The position numbers and the translations under genes are program-made. A stretch of 64,000 nt of DNA from the NCBI RefSeq assembly GCF_002557795.1, contig NZ_CP023777.1:2241001-2305000 (forward strand), given 5' to 3'. Position 1 is the stretch's first letter. Each line of letters starts with the position of its first letter. The notes below the pieces were generated by a model. The model searched no databases and was not told where the DNA came from. It saw only the letters and a list, made by a program, of their open reading frames with translations. This DNA is from Chitinophaga caeni. Its GTDB lineage: Bacteria > Bacteroidota > Bacteroidia > Chitinophagales > Chitinophagaceae. Positions 55,975 to 64,000 of this stretch are shown in pieces.

Positions 55975-56355
55975 ATGCCTACAATACAACAATTAGTAAG
56001 AAAAGGAAGAGAAATTATCCGGGCTAAGTCAAAATCCAGAGCATTGGATAGTTGCCCGCAGCGCCGTGGCGTATGTACCCGTGTGTACACTACCACGCCT
56101 AAGAAGCCAAACTCCGCTTTGCGTAAAGTAGCGAAAGTTCGTTTGACTAATAAAGTAGAGGTGATCGCATATATTCCGGGTGAAGGTCACAACCTTCAAG
56201 AGCACTCTATCGTGTTGATTCGCGGTGGTAGGGTTAAAGACTTACCGGGTGTACGTTACCATATCGTACGTGGATCTTTGGATACTGCGGGTGTGAAAGA
56301 TAGGAAGCAAAGCCGTTCTAAGTATGGTACTAAGAAAGAAAAGGCTAAGAAATAA
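55975..56355 (+). CDS. rpsL: 30S ribosomal protein S12
   Basis: A 126-residue decoding-centre protein of the small subunit. It begins [20 protein letters not shown] and carries [19 protein letters not shown] and [16 protein letters not shown]. The two lysines at which streptomycin-resistance changes arise (in PKKPNSA and RVKDLPG) are both wild type. rpsG follows 30 bases later. Confidence 0.98.
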
Positions 56356-56385
56356 TTGTTAAAATAGTTGAAATTTTTCAAATAA

Positions 56386-56853
56386 ATGAGAAAGCAAGCT
56401 GCGAAAAAATTACCCTTGGCTCCAGATCCAAAATTTGGTGACAAAGTGGTAACCCGTTTTGTGAATAACATCATGGAGCAAGGTAAAAAAAGCGTTGCCT
56501 ATAAAATATTCTACGACGCGATCGATAGAGTTAGCGAAATCACTAGCGAAAACGGTTACGAAGTATGGAAAAAAGCATTAGCTAACGTAACTCCTGCCGT
56601 TGAAGTTAGAAGCCGCCGTATCGGTGGTGCTACCTTCCAAATCCCTTCAGAAGTTCGTGCCGATAGGAAAGTTTCCTTGAGTATGAAATGGTTGATCCGT
56701 TACGCTTCTGAAAGAAACGGTAAGAGCATGGCCGAAAAATTAGCCAACGAAATCGTTGCTGCTAGTAAAGGTGAAGGTGCCGCTTTCAAAAAGAAAGAAG
56801 ATACCCACCGTATGGCTGAAGCTAACAAGGCATTCTCCCACTTTAAAGTTTAA
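56386..56853 (+). CDS. rpsG: 30S ribosomal protein S7
   Basis: A 155-residue protein that nucleates assembly of the 30S head. MRKQAAKKLPLAPDPKFGDKVVTRFVNNIM and VEVRSRRIGGATFQIPSEV are the S7 signatures; length is normal. It is normally followed by fusA, but here a strong terminator and 6.6 kb of unrelated sequence come next. Confidence 0.98.
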   Translation: MRKQAAKKLPLAPDPKFGDKVVTRFVNNIMEQGKKSVAYKIFYDAIDRVSEITSENGYEVWKKALANVTPAVEVRSRRIGGATFQIPSEVRADRKVSLSMKWLIRYASERNGKSMAEKLANEIVAASKGEGAAFKKKEDTHRMAEANKAFSHFKV

Positions 56854-56905
56854 TAGCCATACCAGCGGGCAATCGTTCCGTTGTTTAGATGGTTTGCAAA
56901 ATATT

Positions 56906-56955
56906 ATAGCAAATACTATAGTTTTCTAACTATTGGTATTTGCTATATTTTTTTT
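56906..56955 (+). terminator. Strong terminator after rpsG
   Basis: An 11-bp stem ATAGCAAATAC/GTATTTGCTAT (56906-56916 with 56936-56946) is extended by an inner 6-bp stem ATAGTT/AACTAT and followed by a long T-tract. It ends the rpsL-rpsG transcript. Confidence 0.85.
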
Positions 56956-57000
56956 GATTAATATCTTCCCTCCATCTTGCTGCATCCTGTAATGGTCGAG

Positions 57001-57180
57001 CATTGAAACCACGAGCGCTCGAAACTCGGTTTTTCGAGTTTGGAACTACAATTGTTCGAAACCTGCTTTTCTTGTTTTGACCTTCGAATTTTATCTTGAA
57101 ATAACCTTAAGCCCTTCTTGATTCGAGTCCCCAAGCTTGGACTCCCGTTGGGAACAAGATTCTGCTGATAGAACATCGTG
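57001..57180. repeat. Cluster of short palindromes, degenerate relatives of the 101-bp repeat
   Basis: CGAGCGCTCG (57012-57021), AAACTCG-N6-CGAGTTT (57022-57041) and GAGTCC-N8-GGACTC (57125-57144) lie close together. CGAAACCTG...TTTTC...TGTT at 57057-57080 resembles the reverse complement of part of the tandem unit that follows. No gene is credible here. Confidence 0.55.
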
Positions 57181-57285
57181 TTCGGCAACATTAGAAATTC
57201 AACAAATGGCCGTGAATGTGCGAGGAGTTAGTGCCGCTTCGTTTCCAATACAATTTTAAGTGTCCTTAATTGTGCGTGGGTCCGA

Positions 57286-57512
57286 GCTTGGAAGCTCGCA
57301 CCAGCAAGGGCTTGGGATCTTGGGGCAAAGCATTAAAAAGCGCACCGGGGTTTCGAACACGAAAAATCAGGTTTCGGGTGTCAATGGCTTGGAAGCTCGC
57401 ACCAGCAAGGGCTTGGGATCTTGGGGCAAAGCATTAAAAAGCGCACCGGGGTTTCGAACACGAAAAATCAGGTTTCGGGTGTCAATGGCTTGGAAGCTCG
57501 AACCAGCAAGGG
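57286..57512. repeat. 101-bp tandem repeat, 2.2 copies
   Basis: Units start at 57286, 57387 and 57488. The first two are identical over 101 bases; the third matches for about 25 bases with one change and then ends. Each unit begins with GCTTGGAAGCTCG; in the first, preceded by CGA, it forms CGAGCTT-GG-AAGCTCG (57283-57298). An open frame of 100 codons across it is only a by-product of the repeat, since it repeats with a frame shift of 101 bases. Confidence 0.9.
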
Positions 57513-57548
57513 CAACAGTGAGTATTACGTTGTGCAATAAAATGAAAA

Positions 57549-57573
57549 GGGCTATCCTGTAAAGGGATAGCCC
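57549..57573 (-). terminator. Terminator of the collagen-like operon
   Basis: On the minus strand GGGCTATCC/GGATAGCCC (57549-57557 with 57565-57573) is followed by TTTTCATTTT, 41 bases after the stop of the collagen-like gene. Confidence 0.8.
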
Positions 57574-57613
57574 TATCAGAATTAATAATCAATCATTTAG
57601 AGGTATAAATATG

Positions 57614-60600
57614 CTATTTGATACTTACTAATACCTTGATTTTGCCAGTTTTACCATCAAACTCCTGTAGCGCTTTACCGATTACCTGTCCTGGTTTTAC
57701 CTTGTTGATATCCGCTTTCATGGCATAACCCGGTTTGCTCGAAGAAACGAGTAGGTCACCGCGTTTAATAACCCCTCCTTCATCACAAACCTTCGTCGGA
57801 ATAACCCCGATGACACCCATCGGAACTTGTTTTTCTATCGTTTGATCTTCAATATCCTTTTCTGTCAATAATACCCCGGGTTTCGTGGCATATACTCCTG
57901 CAACCAGCGTAGAATAGGCTTCTTGACTCTTTTCCACGGTGCGATCGACATCAACGGAAATGACGAGGACATCGCCAGGCTCATAAGCATCTTTAGATCC
58001 TTGAACATCAAATGATTCCGCTACGTCCGCCCCGGAATTTTGCGTACCGCCGTTGAAAAATCCGCGGCCAGCCTTATTAATACGGGCAACATTGGCTCCG
58101 GAAGATTGGAATACCGCGAGGTTTCCGGAAGCTCCCGTATGATTTGCCAAGATGGTAGTGCCTGTTCCGGCTGTTGTAATGTGAACAACAGGTTGCGAGT
58201 TTGATGAATTAAAATTAGCAAACCTAGCTGCTCTACCGGTACCAAAATTCGGAACCCAACCGTAGATGGCGTTACCGGAACCGTCAACGGACGCTTGAAC
58301 TCCATCCCCGCTACCACCTGCATTCGCCGTAATACCATTACCGTTGCCTTCTGTCAAAGCTAATAGAGCAGGTCCGTTCCCCGCAGGGTTAGATGAATAA
58401 AATAATCCGCCATATCCACCTGTACCGGAAGATAAACCGTAAACACCCGCTGTACCAAAATTGGCAAATATGGAATTTACTTCCCCCTTAATTGCGGGGC
58501 TTGTACCCGTTGCTTTATCTACTTTGAAATTCCCTGCCGTCCCGTTACCTACGGTCGTTACGGTAATTACATCGTTGTCATTATCCGTATTGAAAATATC
58601 AAACCTTCCTGCCCTACCTAAACTAAAGGAGGGAACCCATGCATATAATGCATTACCGCTACCATCCACGTTTGTTTCTACGCCATTGCCGTCTTTACCT
58701 GCATTTGCTGTAATAGCATTGCCATTACCATCCGTAAGAGCTACTAATGCAGGACCGGTCCCGCCGGTATTAGCGGCATGAAATAAACCTGCAAAGCCTC
58801 CCGTTCCGCTAGAAATTCCGAAAATACCTGCTGCTCCGAAGTTTCCGAAGATCGTATTCACTTCCCCTCTTACTGCGGCGCCGACGCTATTGGTATTATC
58901 TACTTTAAATGAGGCAGCGTTACCCAAGGTGTTGTCTGGAATGTTACCATTTCCATTTGTAACAACTTCCAAGGTATTAGCATCGATATTAGTGGAATTA
59001 AAGTTTTCAAATCTGCCTGCACGGCCTGTACTGCCGTTTACTCCTACTTGCCCGTAAACGCCAACCCCGGTATTATTGGTGCTTGAAGCGATAAAACCCC
59101 TGACACCGTATCCTCCCCCGTCATTTCTACCAACCACGGCACCGGCTATATCGCTGGTAGTTCTACCAACGATAGCTTCCCCGCCGCCATTGTTGTCTCC
59201 AACTATTCCTGCGGATGTTTGTTGACTAGTTATACCATGCACAGAAAAGCCGTTTCCCGTATTCGAGACGATACCAGCCCCGTTTCCCGTAGTATTCACC
59301 GTTAAACCGGTACCATTCCCTACGGTTGAGATAGCCGCCACGTTATTATTGTTCGCATTGTTGTATATCGCCATAGAAGCTGCAGAGCCATTATTAGAAG
59401 TGGCTATTAAACCTATACCGCTATTACTGTTCGCATAAACGCCTGTTCCCGCGCCGGAAGAATTTCCGTAAACTCCCAAACCGGTAGGTGTGACACCATA
59501 TACACCCCAGCCGCTTCCATCTTGTGAACCCCAAACGCCAATACCTAAACCGCCTGTTCCAGCGTTAACGCCTCTAACCGCCGCGCTAAATCCACCCGGC
59601 GCTGTTTGGAGAATATCACCACGGATAGCGCTCACGTTGACCGTGGTGCTGTTGTTGGCTCCCCTGATTGCCGTTCCATCACCATCGTTTGTAAGGTCAA
59701 ACATGGTATTGGCCAGGTTTAATGTCGCGGAATACGGCAAAACTAAGCCGGAAGAAATAGTAGTAGGTTTCCAATTAGTACCATCAAAGCCTAGTAATTG
59801 ATTGGCTAAAGGAGGAGTTGCTTCTACGGGTGTACCATTTAATTTTACCACGGTAGGATTCGGGTAATTTCCTGATAAATCGCCCCCGGCGGCCCCAGTT
59901 AATTCCCCGGCAGGTCCTTGTGGACCCGCTGGTCCAACCGGTCCGATCGGTCCAATTGGTCCGGGATCACCTTGTATTCCTTGTGGGCCTGTTGCTCCTG
60001 CCGGACCTATAGGTCCCGGATCGCCTTGTACACCCTGTGGTCCGACAGGTCCCGGATCACCTTGTGGGCCTTGTGCTCCGGCTGGCCCAACTGGGCCGAT
60101 TGGTCCCGGCGCTCCCATTGCCCCTGCTGGGCCTATGGGACCAGTTGCACCTGTAGGTCCGGGCACGCCTTGTACTCCTTGCGGACCGGCAGGGCCTGTA
60201 GCTCCCGGGTCTCCCTGGTCCCCTTTAGGACCTTGCGGCCCCGCAGGCCCGGGATCCCCTTGATCGCCCTTATCCCCTTTATCGCCTTTAACACCGTTAG
60301 CTGAATATAATGCGAACGGCACAGCTAATAAAGGCGAAGTTCCGAGCACGGCATAACTGCTGCTACCCACGGCTACTTCTACCTTCAGATATTGATTGGC
60401 ATTATTCCATGGAACACTGTTGAAGGTTCCGGTTTGCGCTGCTCCTTTCCCGATCTGTAGATTAAATAACCCAAGGCTATTAGTTATTACATCGTGCATT
60501 TCCTGGTATTGAACCGGCCCAGCCGAAGAGCCTCCCAAAATGGAAATTCTTACCGATAACGCTTGATTAGAGAGCACGGTTCCATTTGCATTTCGTGCCA

Positions 60601-60694
60601 CCGCCTGGTAGTTGATGCCCGAAAAGCTGTTTTGAGCTTTAGCTAAGCCCCAAGAGCTGGATAGAAATATAAGTAGGATTAAAATTCGTCTCAT
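57614..60694 (-). CDS. Collagen-like secreted protein with tail-fibre-like repeats
   Basis: A 1026-residue secreted protein. A signal peptide (to KAQ, residue 21) leads into a beta-rich domain starting [15 protein letters not shown], known from many Bacteroidota surface proteins. Residues 134-265 are 44 uninterrupted Gly-X-Y triplets, rich in GPA, GPQ and [16 protein letters not shown] follows, then about 550 residues of Gly/Asn-rich repeats ([24 protein letters not shown] and variants, [10 protein letters not shown]) that look like a trimeric beta-helix. The last ~140 residues begin SGADVAESF and end in a beta-rich domain ([12 protein letters not shown]). It is probably a trimeric fibre on the cell surface. 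It overlaps the upstream gene by 4 bases. Confidence 0.85.
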
Positions 60695-61134
60695 TTTGTT
60701 GATTTTTTAGTTTGGGGTTGAATGGTAGATTTGGTTGGAGTTGCTGCATTAGCTTTAGGTTCGCTCATTCCCCCCTGCATTTCCGGGGCTTTCGCTTTTT
60801 CTGCCGATTGATTAAGCTCTGCGGCTTTTTTCTTAGCTTGCTCGCCGTTCATCGCGGAAGGTAGTTGCGTATTGGAACTTGCTTTGGATTGAGCAGCGGC
60901 TTTACGGGCAGGGGCAGGGCTCGAGGGCCTATAATTAGTGAAAATCTGTTCCCGGATAGGTCTGCTCGGATCGAATTTCATCTTTTCTTCCGGTTTTATA
61001 TTCAACTTGCGGATATCTTCATCGAAAGAATTGAATAGTAAATATTTAGTAGATGCTTTGCCCTTGGATTGGCCTTTTGCATAGACCGACATCAAGCAAA
61101 CAATAGCTAATGACATGAGTAGTTTCATTTTCAT
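60691..61134 (-). CDS. Small secreted Ala/Lys-rich protein
   Basis: A 147-residue protein with a signal peptide ([22 protein letters not shown]). About 45 residues of ordinary composition follow ([39 protein letters not shown]), then a low-complexity tail rich in Ala, Lys, Ser, Gln and Pro, probably disordered. The family is not recognised. Its stop overlaps the start of the collagen-like gene (ATGA), so the two are translated together and the product may assist or attach that protein. Confidence 0.7.
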
Positions 61135-61188
61135 ATTCCAGTTTATTTGGGTGTAGAGAATGTTTGTTTTATAAGTTGATAGTAGACA

Positions 61189-62355
61189 TTAATCTGCATA
61201 CATATTGACTAACAATCCTAGCTTAAAAGTTCGGGTTTGGTACATGGTTCCGTCTGTAGGCATGATATAGGCCATATTAATCTCGAAGGGTTTCAACCGG
61301 AAGCCCGCTCCTAGGGAAGCATGTTGCCTGTGACCCTTCAATTCATTTTCATAAAAATATCCGGCCCTGATAAAAAGCTGCTCCCGGTAAGCATATTCCA
61401 CACCGGTAGCGAAGGTCAACTCCTTGATCTCTTCTTTGAACCCGCCCGGAGCATCTCCAAACGAGCTAAATATAGATTCTACGACGCTCCTGTCCGGATC
61501 TTTTCCCTTGATGATCACATCCGTAGGAAATCCTTGATCATCAAGCTCGTATTGCGGTGGGGTAGGTATTAATAATTTATTGATATCCAGTGCGATAGTA
61601 AATGTGTGTTCAGTTGTATGGACGAAGGTATAACCCCCGCCGATCTTCAGATTCATCGGTAGGAATGTTTTCTTATTATCATCATCCGAATAACTTAATT
61701 TCGAACCGATGTTAGAAAAACTGATCCCCCAGCAATACCGGTTACCAAAATCTATATGATCTGCATAATTTTGGTAGTAAAACCCAACATCACCCGCCAC
61801 GGCGCTGGCCGCTTTCTGCTGGATGCCGTTATAAGTACCTTCACCTAAATCACTGCGGATATAGCGTAACGATACTCCCAACGAATAATGATCACCTAAT
61901 TTCCGCGCATAGGTCGCATCTATAGCGAATTCGCGCGGCTTGTAATTGGAAAGTTGCTGACCATTATCATCGCGGAAGGTGACCGTTCCGTGCGACATGT
62001 ACCGCAACGAGGCCCCGATAGCTTCCTTGCCGTTAAAGCTTTTGAATCCGGATAAATAAGCCACGGCAGATTGCGTGTTATCATTATTCAGCTCATATAG
62101 CCATGGAGAATAGGATGCGCCGATGCCCCAATCGCCGGCGAAGGCTATTTTAGCGGAGTTGCCCAACAGGTCATTGACATTGGGGGCAATCCCCGTCATG
62201 GCACTTCCGACAGCGCTCGTTCTAGGGTCGGGGTTGATCATTAAGAAAGGAGCGCCAACCTGCAAAGAATTGGGAGCCGATTTTTGGGCGACCAGGGACA
62301 ATGCCGGTAAGCATACCATGCCCAGGACACAAACTGATCTGTAGAAATATTTCAT
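61189..62355 (-). CDS. PorV-like type IX secretion outer-membrane protein
   Basis: A 388-residue outer-membrane beta-barrel protein of the PorV/PorQ (FadL-like) group. After the signal peptide (to LVAQ) comes PFLMINPDPRTSAVGSAMTGIAPNVNDLLGNSAKIAF, the PorV N-terminal signature, and the barrel ends with LGLLVNMYAD. PorV shuttles T9SS cargo from the SprA translocon to the attachment machinery. No porU is adjacent, so this may be a paralogue tied to the neighbouring secreted proteins rather than the main housekeeping copy. Confidence 0.85.
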   Translation of the reverse strand: MKYFYRSVCVLGMVCLPALSLVAQKSAPNSLQVGAPFLMINPDPRTSAVGSAMTGIAPNVNDLLGNSAKIAFAGDWGIGASYSPWLYELNNDNTQSAVAYLSGFKSFNGKEAIGASLRYMSHGTVTFRDDNGQQLSNYKPREFAIDATYARKLGDHYSLGVSLRYIRSDLGEGTYNGIQQKAASAVAGDVGFYYQNYADHIDFGNRYCWGISFSNIGSKLSYSDDDNKKTFLPMNLKIGGGYTFVHTTEHTFTIALDINKLLIPTPPQYELDDQGFPTDVIIKGKDPDRSVVESIFSSFGDAPGGFKEEIKELTFATGVEYAYREQLFIRAGYFYENELKGHRQHASLGAGFRLKPFEINMAYIMPTDGTMYQTRTFKLGLLVNMYAD

Positions 62356-62394
62356 ATTGGATGATTTAGATGCCGGGCAGACATCGGTATATGA

Positions 62395-62910
62395 TTATTG
62401 GATGACGATTTTATCGGTGTAGACCTTACCATCGACCTTGAGAATAACGGTGTAAATACCACTGGCGAATTGATCTGCCGGCACTGGTATCAAGACTTTA
62501 CCGGTTCCATATTGCCTGATGTCTTGAAAGATGATTTGTCCCGCGGCGTTCATAATAATCACGGTAGTAGTAGCTTCCCGCGCCAAATCGAACTGAATTT
62601 TCATGGTAGTCTTCACCGGGTTGGGAAATATCATGAAGTTGGTTACAATAGGGATACCGAGGGGAGGCCTTGGTATTATCTCCGGTTGATGAAAGCCTTG
62701 GCTAAGCATCCGGTTGCCCGAAGAAAGCGTTAAAATTGCGAAATCACCGATGGTATATTCATATAAAACACCGTTTGCGATGGCAGTGCCGCCAGTACTG
62801 GCTACAACTTCACGCACGAGTTGCAACTCGAATTGAGCCTTGGTCGGTTTCGATAGTAATAACAGGTTGAGCAGCAAACAAATACAGGAGGGTAGAAGTT
62901 TGGACTTCAT
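62395..62910 (-). CDS. T9SS type A sorting-domain protein
   Basis: A 171-residue secreted protein: a signal peptide (to TKAQ), about 65 residues containing VVASTGGTAIANGVLYEYTIGDFAIL and SQGFHQPE, then a C-terminal type A sorting domain (about 92-171) with FMIFPNPVKTTMKIQFDL, IIMNAAGQIIF and FASGIYTVILKVDGKVYTDKIVIQ. The sorting domain sends proteins through the type IX system to the surface. It is the first gene of the reverse operon, 39 bases upstream of the PorV-like gene. Confidence 0.9.
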   Translation of the reverse strand: MKSKLLPSCICLLLNLLLLSKPTKAQFELQLVREVVASTGGTAIANGVLYEYTIGDFAILTLSSGNRMLSQGFHQPEIIPRPPLGIPIVTNFMIFPNPVKTTMKIQFDLAREATTTVIIMNAAGQIIFQDIRQYGTGKVLIPVPADQFASGIYTVILKVDGKVYTDKIVIQ

Positions 62911-63442
62911 GCTTGGATAGATTTAAATAAAAATGAAACAGATTAGATTATTTAACAGCTTATATGCCCTTTGGTGCCGGGCGGATAAAATATAGATTAC
63001 CGTGCCAGGGCAAGAATATCAGCATTATTAGCTATTAATATTTATACAGTTACAATTAAATAGTAAAAATAAGGTTGACACATTCTGATTATAGGGTTTA
63101 ATTAGAATAGGTCATATTCGATTATCAGATTCTACTTACCATTAATAGGTATAAAATTAATAATTATAAACCCATTACATATAATCTACCGGCTTAAAAA
63201 TGATAACTGGCTGCAAACACCTGAAAACTGGAAGAAAATAACCGGTTCCATGACAAATATGTTGTAAGTAATAGCTAATTTTGCGCCTTCACTACAAACA
63301 AGGGTAGTTTAGGATAAGGTTATCGATATTTCGCAGCATTACCAATGATTTAACAATTAAACAAATTACTTGGTTTTATTTGTAAATAAAAAAATCTTAC
63401 CTTTGCCCCCCAAATTGCATTATTTTTAGTCATTTTATAATT
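62911..63442. other. Divergent gap between the reverse operon and fusA
   Basis: 532 bases, AT-rich, no gene or RNA recognised. It holds the fusA -7 element at its right end. No -7 box for the reverse operon could be pinned down. Confidence 0.4.
63398..63405 (+). promoter_or_regulatory. -7 promoter element of fusA
   Basis: TACCTTTG followed by CCCCCC matches the -7 consensus and the rpsL promoter at the same eight bases, 38 bases before the fusA ATG. A TTTG at 63379-63382 is only 15 bases away, shorter than usual. Confidence 0.6.
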
Positions 63443-64000
63443 ATGGCAGACTTACGATTTCAAAGAAATATTGGTATTGCGGCGCATATCGATGCCGGTA
63501 AAACCACTACCACAGAGCGTATCCTGTATTATACAGGTAAAACCCACAAGATAGGTGAGGTTCACGAAGGTGCAGCTACCATGGACTGGATGGCGCAAGA
63601 ACAAGAGAGAGGTATTACCATCACATCGGCTGCAACTACTTGTTTCTGGAACTTCCCTACCGATCAAGGACAAGTTACGCCTGATACTAAAAGTTTTAAA
63701 TTTAACATCATTGACACGCCAGGTCACGTGGACTTTACCGTAGAGGTAGAGCGTTCCCTTCGTGTATTGGACGGTTTGGTGGCTTTGTTCTGTGCCGTAT
63801 CCGGTGTAGAACCACAGTCTGAAACCGTTTGGCGTCAAGCAAACCGTTACCGTGTACCACGTATCGGTTTCGTAAACAAGATGGACCGCTCCGGTGCCGA
63901 CTTCTTGAACGTTGTAAAACAAGTTAAAGAAATGTTGGGCGCAAATCCTGTTCCTTTAGTATTACCTATCGGGGCAGAAGATTCTTTCAAGGGCGTGGTT
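63443..64000 (+). CDS. fusA: Elongation factor G, N-terminal part (cut by window edge)
   Basis: The translocase GTPase of translation. Only 186 codons are visible. The G1 motif [19 protein letters not shown] (residues 14-32) is followed by the switch regions ([35 protein letters not shown]) and [25 protein letters not shown] is the Bacteroidota-type start. It has its own promoter element and is separated from rpsG by 6.6 kb. Confidence 0.97.

Follow-up and report, generated by a model that had tools for sequence, protein, structure and literature searches.

Why does fusA start more than 6 kb downstream of rpsG in Chitinophaga caeni, and what are the genes placed between them? The question is raised by a 64,000-nucleotide stretch of its chromosome (assembly GCF_002557795.1, contig NZ_CP023777.1, positions 2,241,001 to 2,305,000), hereafter the window, from whose first letter all coordinates are counted. 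In a canonical str operon rpsL, rpsG and fusA are contiguous; here rpsG and fusA are separated by 6,589 bases, within which four open reading frames (ORFs) are found on the opposite, minus strand (57614-60694, 60691-61134, 61189-62355 and 62395-62910, with a 4-base overlap and spacings of 54 and 39 bases, respectively). These four genes, here called the block, code for a collagen-like fibre protein, a small protein of 147 amino acids, a paralogue of PorV from the type IX secretion system (T9SS) and a small protein that ends in a T9SS type A sorting tail, the tail protein. An earlier note on this DNA explained the arrangement by an insertion into one of the most conserved bacterial operons, after which fusA would have gained a promoter of its own. 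We consider it rather probable that the genus has long carried the block as a cassette for a surface fibre, and we propose that the T9SS displays this fibre with a PorV carrier of its own, display being the inferred step. No description of the block was found in the literature searched, which mostly did not extend to subscription papers.

The four block proteins

The tail protein (171 amino acids; 62395..62910, minus strand) matches the type A sorting domain TIGR04183 with 42.9 bits (cut-off 23) over residues 94-171. The PorV paralogue (61189..62355, minus strand) belongs to the T9SS family of outer-membrane carriers, with 373.6 bits against NF033710 (cut-off 250) and an E-value of 1.5e-63 against the solved PorV structure 6h3i, being homologous to PorV over most of its length. 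Linkage to porU (peptidase C25 family) is usual for core PorV, and the paralogue has no C25 peptidase gene of the porU type beside it. The porU-porV pair of this genome, with its C25-peptidase-linked PorV, is located elsewhere (G000:C1:727.6 kb), and so the PorV of the block is an extra copy; SprA is also encoded in the genome. The name PorV2 is unsuitable for the paralogue, as in NCBIfam it is already taken by another family (NF052325, for which L200 7194-8336 scores far below the cut-off).

The fibre protein (1026 amino acids; 57614..60694, minus strand) contains collagen-type repeats (PF01391, E-value 2.4e-15, 56.5 bits, cut-off 27.2) and is composed of a signal peptide, recognised by eye, an N-terminal domain, collagen repeats from residue 133, Gly-rich repeats and a conserved C-terminal domain. 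Residues 16-88 weakly resemble Bdello_MAT_N (NF053851, E-value 1.1e-9, 38.3 bits, below the cut-off of 60), and this profile also matches five of six other fibres, always below the cut-off, and leaves P0002 without a match. Known collagen-like adhesin families of NCBIfam are far from being reached (78.5 of 325, 72.3 of 400 and 63.5 of 500 bits), and no T9SS tail domain was identified in the fibre at E<=0.001 with Pfam and NCBIfam profiles. The C-terminal domain (residues 886-1026, 141 residues; 57617..58039, minus strand) has no Pfam match; it was retrieved in 1552 proteins of the protein collection at E<=1e-3, the best 120 listed being 67-79% identical, with the exception of the window's own protein. 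The remaining protein (147 amino acids; 60691..61134, minus strand) seems, by eye, to have a signal peptide and a low-complexity C-terminal part; it has no Pfam or NCBIfam match and the search of the protein collection returned only itself.

The tail protein and the fibre outside Chitinophaga

The fibre C-terminal domain is present in 8 of the 296 genomes of a phylum sample and in 49 of the 394 genomes of a family sample (the window's genome is included in both counts and nine genomes of the genus in the second). There are 54 places with a fibre outside the genus and 6 more outside the family; 41 of these are covered by 40 loci picked by the C-terminal domain alone, 3 are in L194, L196 and L200, which were fetched for their extra PorV copies and therefore excluded from the 40, and the remaining 16, of which several are close to contig ends, were not included. 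In 32 of the 40 loci a small type A gene immediately precedes the fibre gene on the same strand, at a distance of -38 to 113 bases. All loci with this pair are from families f1 and f19; f47 and f51, each with a single locus, have no small gene directly upstream. Among 36 control loci (long rpsG loci, not random stretches) only one, L080, contains any such small gene, and there it precedes a protein with a fibre-type N-terminal domain.

In three further genomes, found through PorV (G188, G205 and G275), the order is tail gene, fibre, small Ala/Pro/Lys-rich gene and PorV. The four kinds of parts observed in the window are thus also present there in a changed order, the pair having kept its orientation while PorV changed place. 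A LytTR regulator is encoded upstream of the four-part unit in two scanned genomes of two other genera (L194 2397-3137 and L196 12217-12723).

The tail protein and the PorV paralogue could alternatively share an operon for co-expression only, the fibre crossing the outer membrane by other means. The fibre without a recognised T9SS tail is what such an explanation would expect, as are the 8 of 40 loci outside the genus without a small gene directly upstream, both loci of f47 and f51 included; it accounts less well for a pair that is directly adjacent in all the other loci, in two families, and that keeps its orientation when PorV is displaced. We regard mere co-expression as possible but less likely than not, at about three chances in ten.

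Presence, loss and movement of the block

The genus sample comprises 79 genomes, of which 74 have rpsG and fusA on one contig and strand. In these, the rpsG-fusA gap is of 241-786 bases in 11 genomes, 1,525 bases in one and 4.7-20 kb in 62. Matches to the fibre, PorV and tail genes were found in all 62 genomes with the large gap, the gap of 1,525 bases contains only a fibre piece, and none of the three genes was detected, at the threshold used, in the 11 short gaps. Block genes also adjoin fusA in the five remaining genomes (G005, G066, G070, G087 and G020; the stretch fetched for G087 stops before the fibre and the block of G066 is split by a contig end), which gives a total of 67 of 79 genomes with block genes beside fusA. 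The earlier note had proposed to compare this spacing across relatives and would have taken a generally large gap for an old trait; at the level of the genus, a large gap is the common state.

Thirteen gaps exceed 10 kb. Eight of them contain two or three tandem PorV copies, G081 shows several broken matches and G077, G018, G017 and G057 have a single PorV. In two of the eight multi-copy genomes compared (G043 and G062), the tail proteins and the PorVs of the tandem copies share 98-100% identity and the fibres 65-70%, a pattern that suggests exchange or conversion between copies; the tandem PorVs of G078, G011, G091 and G092 are 75-86% identical. In the three tandem blocks of G064 (L185) the PorV frame is broken in two copies (at ~6.6 and 12.8 kb) and open in the third, by decay or by sequencing error.

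We followed the 12 genomes without a full block at fusA in a species tree of rpsL, rpsG and fusA (82 rows, 72 from the genus and 10 from outside), which covers 72 of the 79 genomes, since two regions end before fusA and five genomes do not have rpsG and fusA on one contig. Their distribution requires six changes; six are also required by the 10 block-less genomes in an rpoB tree of 30 genomes of the genus, at least four being forced by well-supported branches. Remnants are still in place in G008 (60 residues that match the small tail gene) and in G049 (a fibre piece), the reversed control having given one weak hit. In two of the 12 genomes, G071 and G067, a full block is located elsewhere, and its PorV groups with that of G090, from the same species clade; a group II intron maturase ORF adjoins the relocated block of G067 (L193 1982-3259). 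The other 10 genomes contain only PorVs of at most 44% identity. From scattered absence, remnants, relocated and tandem copies we conclude that the block goes far back in the genus, with later loss, movement and duplication.

The genus PorV copies form one clade, apart from the porU-linked PorV of the window's genome, and their tree, compared in 55 single-copy genomes, has 24 of 52 splits in common with the species tree (maximum of 2 after shuffling of labels). In G004, PorV and the tail protein cluster with those of G016, G022, G076, G015, G021 and G089, a position unlike that given by its rpoB and fusA. The block was probably transferred once.

For comparison outside the genus we used 67 named loci, with rpsG at most 83% identical, 37 of which reach fusA. 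The gap is shorter than 600 bases in 23 loci and of 1.1-9.6 kb in 14, no fusA is seen in more than 8.5 kb in 19, and 11 end too early. Judging from these distances, the rpsG-fusA junction is loose, not well conserved, in the family. In the DNA examined, the block was not found at any of the 67 loci, and since 67 of the 79 Chitinophaga genomes do have its genes, the block was probably inserted between rpsG and fusA, as the earlier note had it, not recently but before the genus diversified.

In three of the 67 loci (L050, 12194-13036; L054, 3597-4481; L080, 11336-12990), rpsG is followed by a protein of 279-294 amino acids with a fibre-type N-terminal domain (26-30% identical), preceded in L080 by the small type A gene mentioned above. 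These proteins contain no collagen-fibre C-terminal domain and no PorV is found with them; an older related pair may once have been present at the rpsG site. We also considered the site as an insertion hotspot for mobile elements and rejected it. Of 93 ORFs selected after rpsG in other genera, the 58 scanned correspond to 62 Pfam families; the 25 of these that were listed are metabolic, transport, regulatory and other families, with no transposase or integrase among them.

Could the block be an exchangeable cassette, gained at this place on several occasions, some empty sites being primitive? The position of the G004 PorV and tail protein, the near-identical PorVs beside divergent fibres in G043 and G062 and the three outside proteins following rpsG, one of them behind a small type A gene, would all suit repeated gain. 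The gene tree nevertheless broadly follows the species tree, the remnants show loss, and no transposase or integrase was detected in the four interval genes with Pfam and NCBIfam profiles (the L193 maturase stands beside a relocated copy). We therefore hold repeated gain to be rather unlikely, at about one chance in four, and retain an old block with later losses.

The boundary between rpsG and fusA

The genes rpsL (30S ribosomal protein S12; 55975..56355, plus strand; TIGR00981, 228.7 bits, cut-off 112.95) and rpsG (30S ribosomal protein S7; 56386..56853, plus strand; TIGR01029, 204.6 bits, cut-off 135.85) are followed, on the same strand, by a hairpin and a T run that constitute a probable terminator (56898..56954, arms 56898-56916 and 56936-56954). 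The segment 56850-56960 folds with -35.9 kcal/mol (z -6.6), and none of 200 shuffled sequences is equally stable, which agrees with the strong terminator claimed in the earlier note. A simple terminator scan, with 10 sites in total against a shuffle mean of 8.8, does not have this hairpin on its list.

The gene fusA (elongation factor G; 63443..64000, plus strand, running past the end of the window; a 734-amino-acid open frame, TIGR00484 E-value 1.1e-92) does have a -7 element of its own, also as claimed: the box TACCTTTG, at 63398-63405, conforms to TAnnTTTG, the housekeeping -7 box. It lies in a promoter and leader region of ~95 bases (63348..63442, plus strand), the equivalent of which can be aligned between empty and occupied sites of other genomes. 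In 12 pairs of an empty or remnant site with an occupied one (8 of the 12 such genomes are represented, some genomes being used in more than one pair, so that the pairs are not independent), the last 95 bases or more before fusA align in all, and the stretch after rpsG (at least 70 bases) in 11, G007-G019 aligning only on the fusA side. The rpsL of G019 (L151) is 74% identical to that of the window, compared with 98-100% in the other tabulated genomes of the genus, by replacement or through an assembly problem.

The -7 box of fusA was found at 72 of the 72 genus sites scored. Most empty sites within the genus go back to secondary loss, and the age of the promoter is therefore better judged from loci outside it; there, the box is observed at most 120 bases from fusA in 17 of the 23 loci with gaps below 600 bases and in 23 of the 37 in which fusA is seen, ~0.05 boxes per locus being expected by chance from the motif density of the window, by our arithmetic. 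Since the box is present at short-gap loci outside the genus, the boundary between rpsL-rpsG, with their terminator, and fusA, with its own promoter, probably predates the block, and the proposal that fusA gained its promoter after the insertion finds no support.

No TAnnTTTG box was found within 200 bases upstream of the tail gene (62911-63110 in the window) in any of the 62 genus blocks scored, when 5-6 would be expected by chance from the window density, again by our arithmetic. The operon of the block may use another sigma factor.

Between rpsG and the block we identified a copy of a dispersed intergenic repeat family (57053..57513), which includes 2.3 copies of a 101-base unit with 99% matches. 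The tandem repeat and the operon on the opposite strand reported for this interval are thus real; a 760-base intergenic query, however, gave 103 matches on the chromosome (the query itself and its own hairpin counted), often as neighbouring copies, and a repeat family dispersed to this extent is not specific to the rpsG-fusA site. A hairpin of 10 pairs with a T-rich tail (57574-57548, minus strand), obtained in the terminator scan, is a possible terminator of the four-gene operon. The Rfam scan of the region gave 0 matches, and a sigma-70 promoter scan, whose model does not cover Bacteroidota promoters, gave 20 sites against 15.2 (sd 4.1) in shuffled sequences.

The position of the block may matter in itself, the operon being kept beside fusA so that fibre synthesis is coupled to growth rate or gene dosage, and the many genomes that keep block genes there would fit. 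Against this are the opposite strand, the two genomes that carry the block elsewhere and the uniform lack of a housekeeping -7 box near the tail gene, and we consider a role for the position improbable. Because the block is on the opposite strand, its location beside fusA is probably tolerated rather than functional; as a conjecture, homologous recombination in the highly conserved flanks might allow the block to be exchanged between strains or lost. A recent insertion that split the str operon in this lineage, with fusA then evolving a new promoter, would explain the 6,589-base gap, the repeats beside the block and the short gaps of 23 outside loci, and is very hard to reconcile with block genes in 67 of 79 genomes, with the same promoter at every genus site scored and a box at most short-gap loci outside, and with a repeat found all over the genome.

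Proposed function and related systems

In the mechanism that we propose, the four block proteins would enter the periplasm by Sec, and the small type A protein would then leave through SprA on a PorV-type carrier. The PorV paralogue would be that carrier, or a surface anchor, dedicated to the unit. The fibre would be brought out, or held at the surface, via the small type A protein, and would project as a trimer for adhesion. According to PMC10994853, type A tails are held by the pore loops of PorV, which docks on SprA. For type B substrates, cognate carriers are often encoded alongside and help to decide the final location (PMC12618676), and by analogy with these the small type A protein would have the PorV paralogue as its carrier.

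Several observations weigh against this reading. All type A tails are recognised by PorV, as stated in PMC12618676, which would make a second PorV unnecessary. No PorV is found near any of the 40 fibre loci from other genera, and only 3 of the 14 other PorV neighbourhoods hold a fibre (of the 19 stretches in that set, 16 were chosen for a PorV copy, including the two relocated blocks, which are not counted here); the PorV link therefore rests on Chitinophaga and those three genomes. A counterpart of the 147-amino-acid protein is recognisable in about half of the blocks (32 of 62, the window's own included, by matches of 23-36% identity in 31 other full blocks). The single-chain model of the fibre C-terminal piece is of low confidence (mean pLDDT, the predicted local distance difference test, of 61.5), and in a tree of the fibre N-terminal domain G004 falls outside the clade given by the PorV and tail-protein trees. 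With the pair at 32 of 40 loci and PorV at none, gene neighbourhood indicates that the core unit is the tail protein and the fibre, PorV being an addition in some lineages.

A close parallel is found in the pairs of a T9SS PorP/SprF-like carrier and a type B substrate in Flavobacterium johnsoniae (PMC12618676), in which, as here, a carrier gene is beside that of its substrate, a tailed one, and the products are surface adhesins; the block differs in having a PorV paralogue, a type A tail on a separate small protein and a fibre without a recognised tail. From core PorV, the paralogue differs in being a second copy and in not adjoining porU. The mosaic adhesive trimer (MAT) fibres of Bdellovibrio (PMC10769870) are likewise secreted, with an N-terminal domain followed by a long repetitive shaft, and it is to their N-terminal profile that the block fibre has its weak match; in contrast, the block fibre stays below the cut-off, has a different, highly conserved C-terminal domain, is linked to T9SS genes and contains collagen repeats, the word collagen being absent from the main text of PMC10769870. 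With the bacterial collagen-like adhesins Scl1/Scl2 and Lcl the fibre has collagen-type repeats in common, with scores far below the cut-offs of those families.

By analogy with these systems we suggest, tentatively and as a less likely possibility than the cassette itself, that the T9SS may deliver a tail-less trimeric fibre by way of a small type A protein that acts as a separate "ticket", helped in Chitinophaga by a PorV paralogue reserved for the pair. If true, this would be the type A counterpart of the dedicated type B carriers. It might also explain by what means a MAT-like fibre is held at its surface end, the Bdellovibrio MAT fibres being presumed to rest on a cell-surface partner that has yet to be identified (PMC10769870).

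The tempting story of this locus is thus corrected: the genus has had the split for a long time, and the fusA promoter did not, in all probability, follow it. Seen as a split operon the locus is unremarkable; as a fibre unit with a tie to the T9SS it is of moderate interest. The conserved pair that it reveals, a small type A protein and a tail-less fibre, was found in families f1 and f19 of the phylum, and in Chitinophaga a PorV copy travels with this pair. If the pair works as proposed, the cargo of the T9SS would be wider than the tail-bearing proteins, and cargo lists based on tails would miss such fibres.

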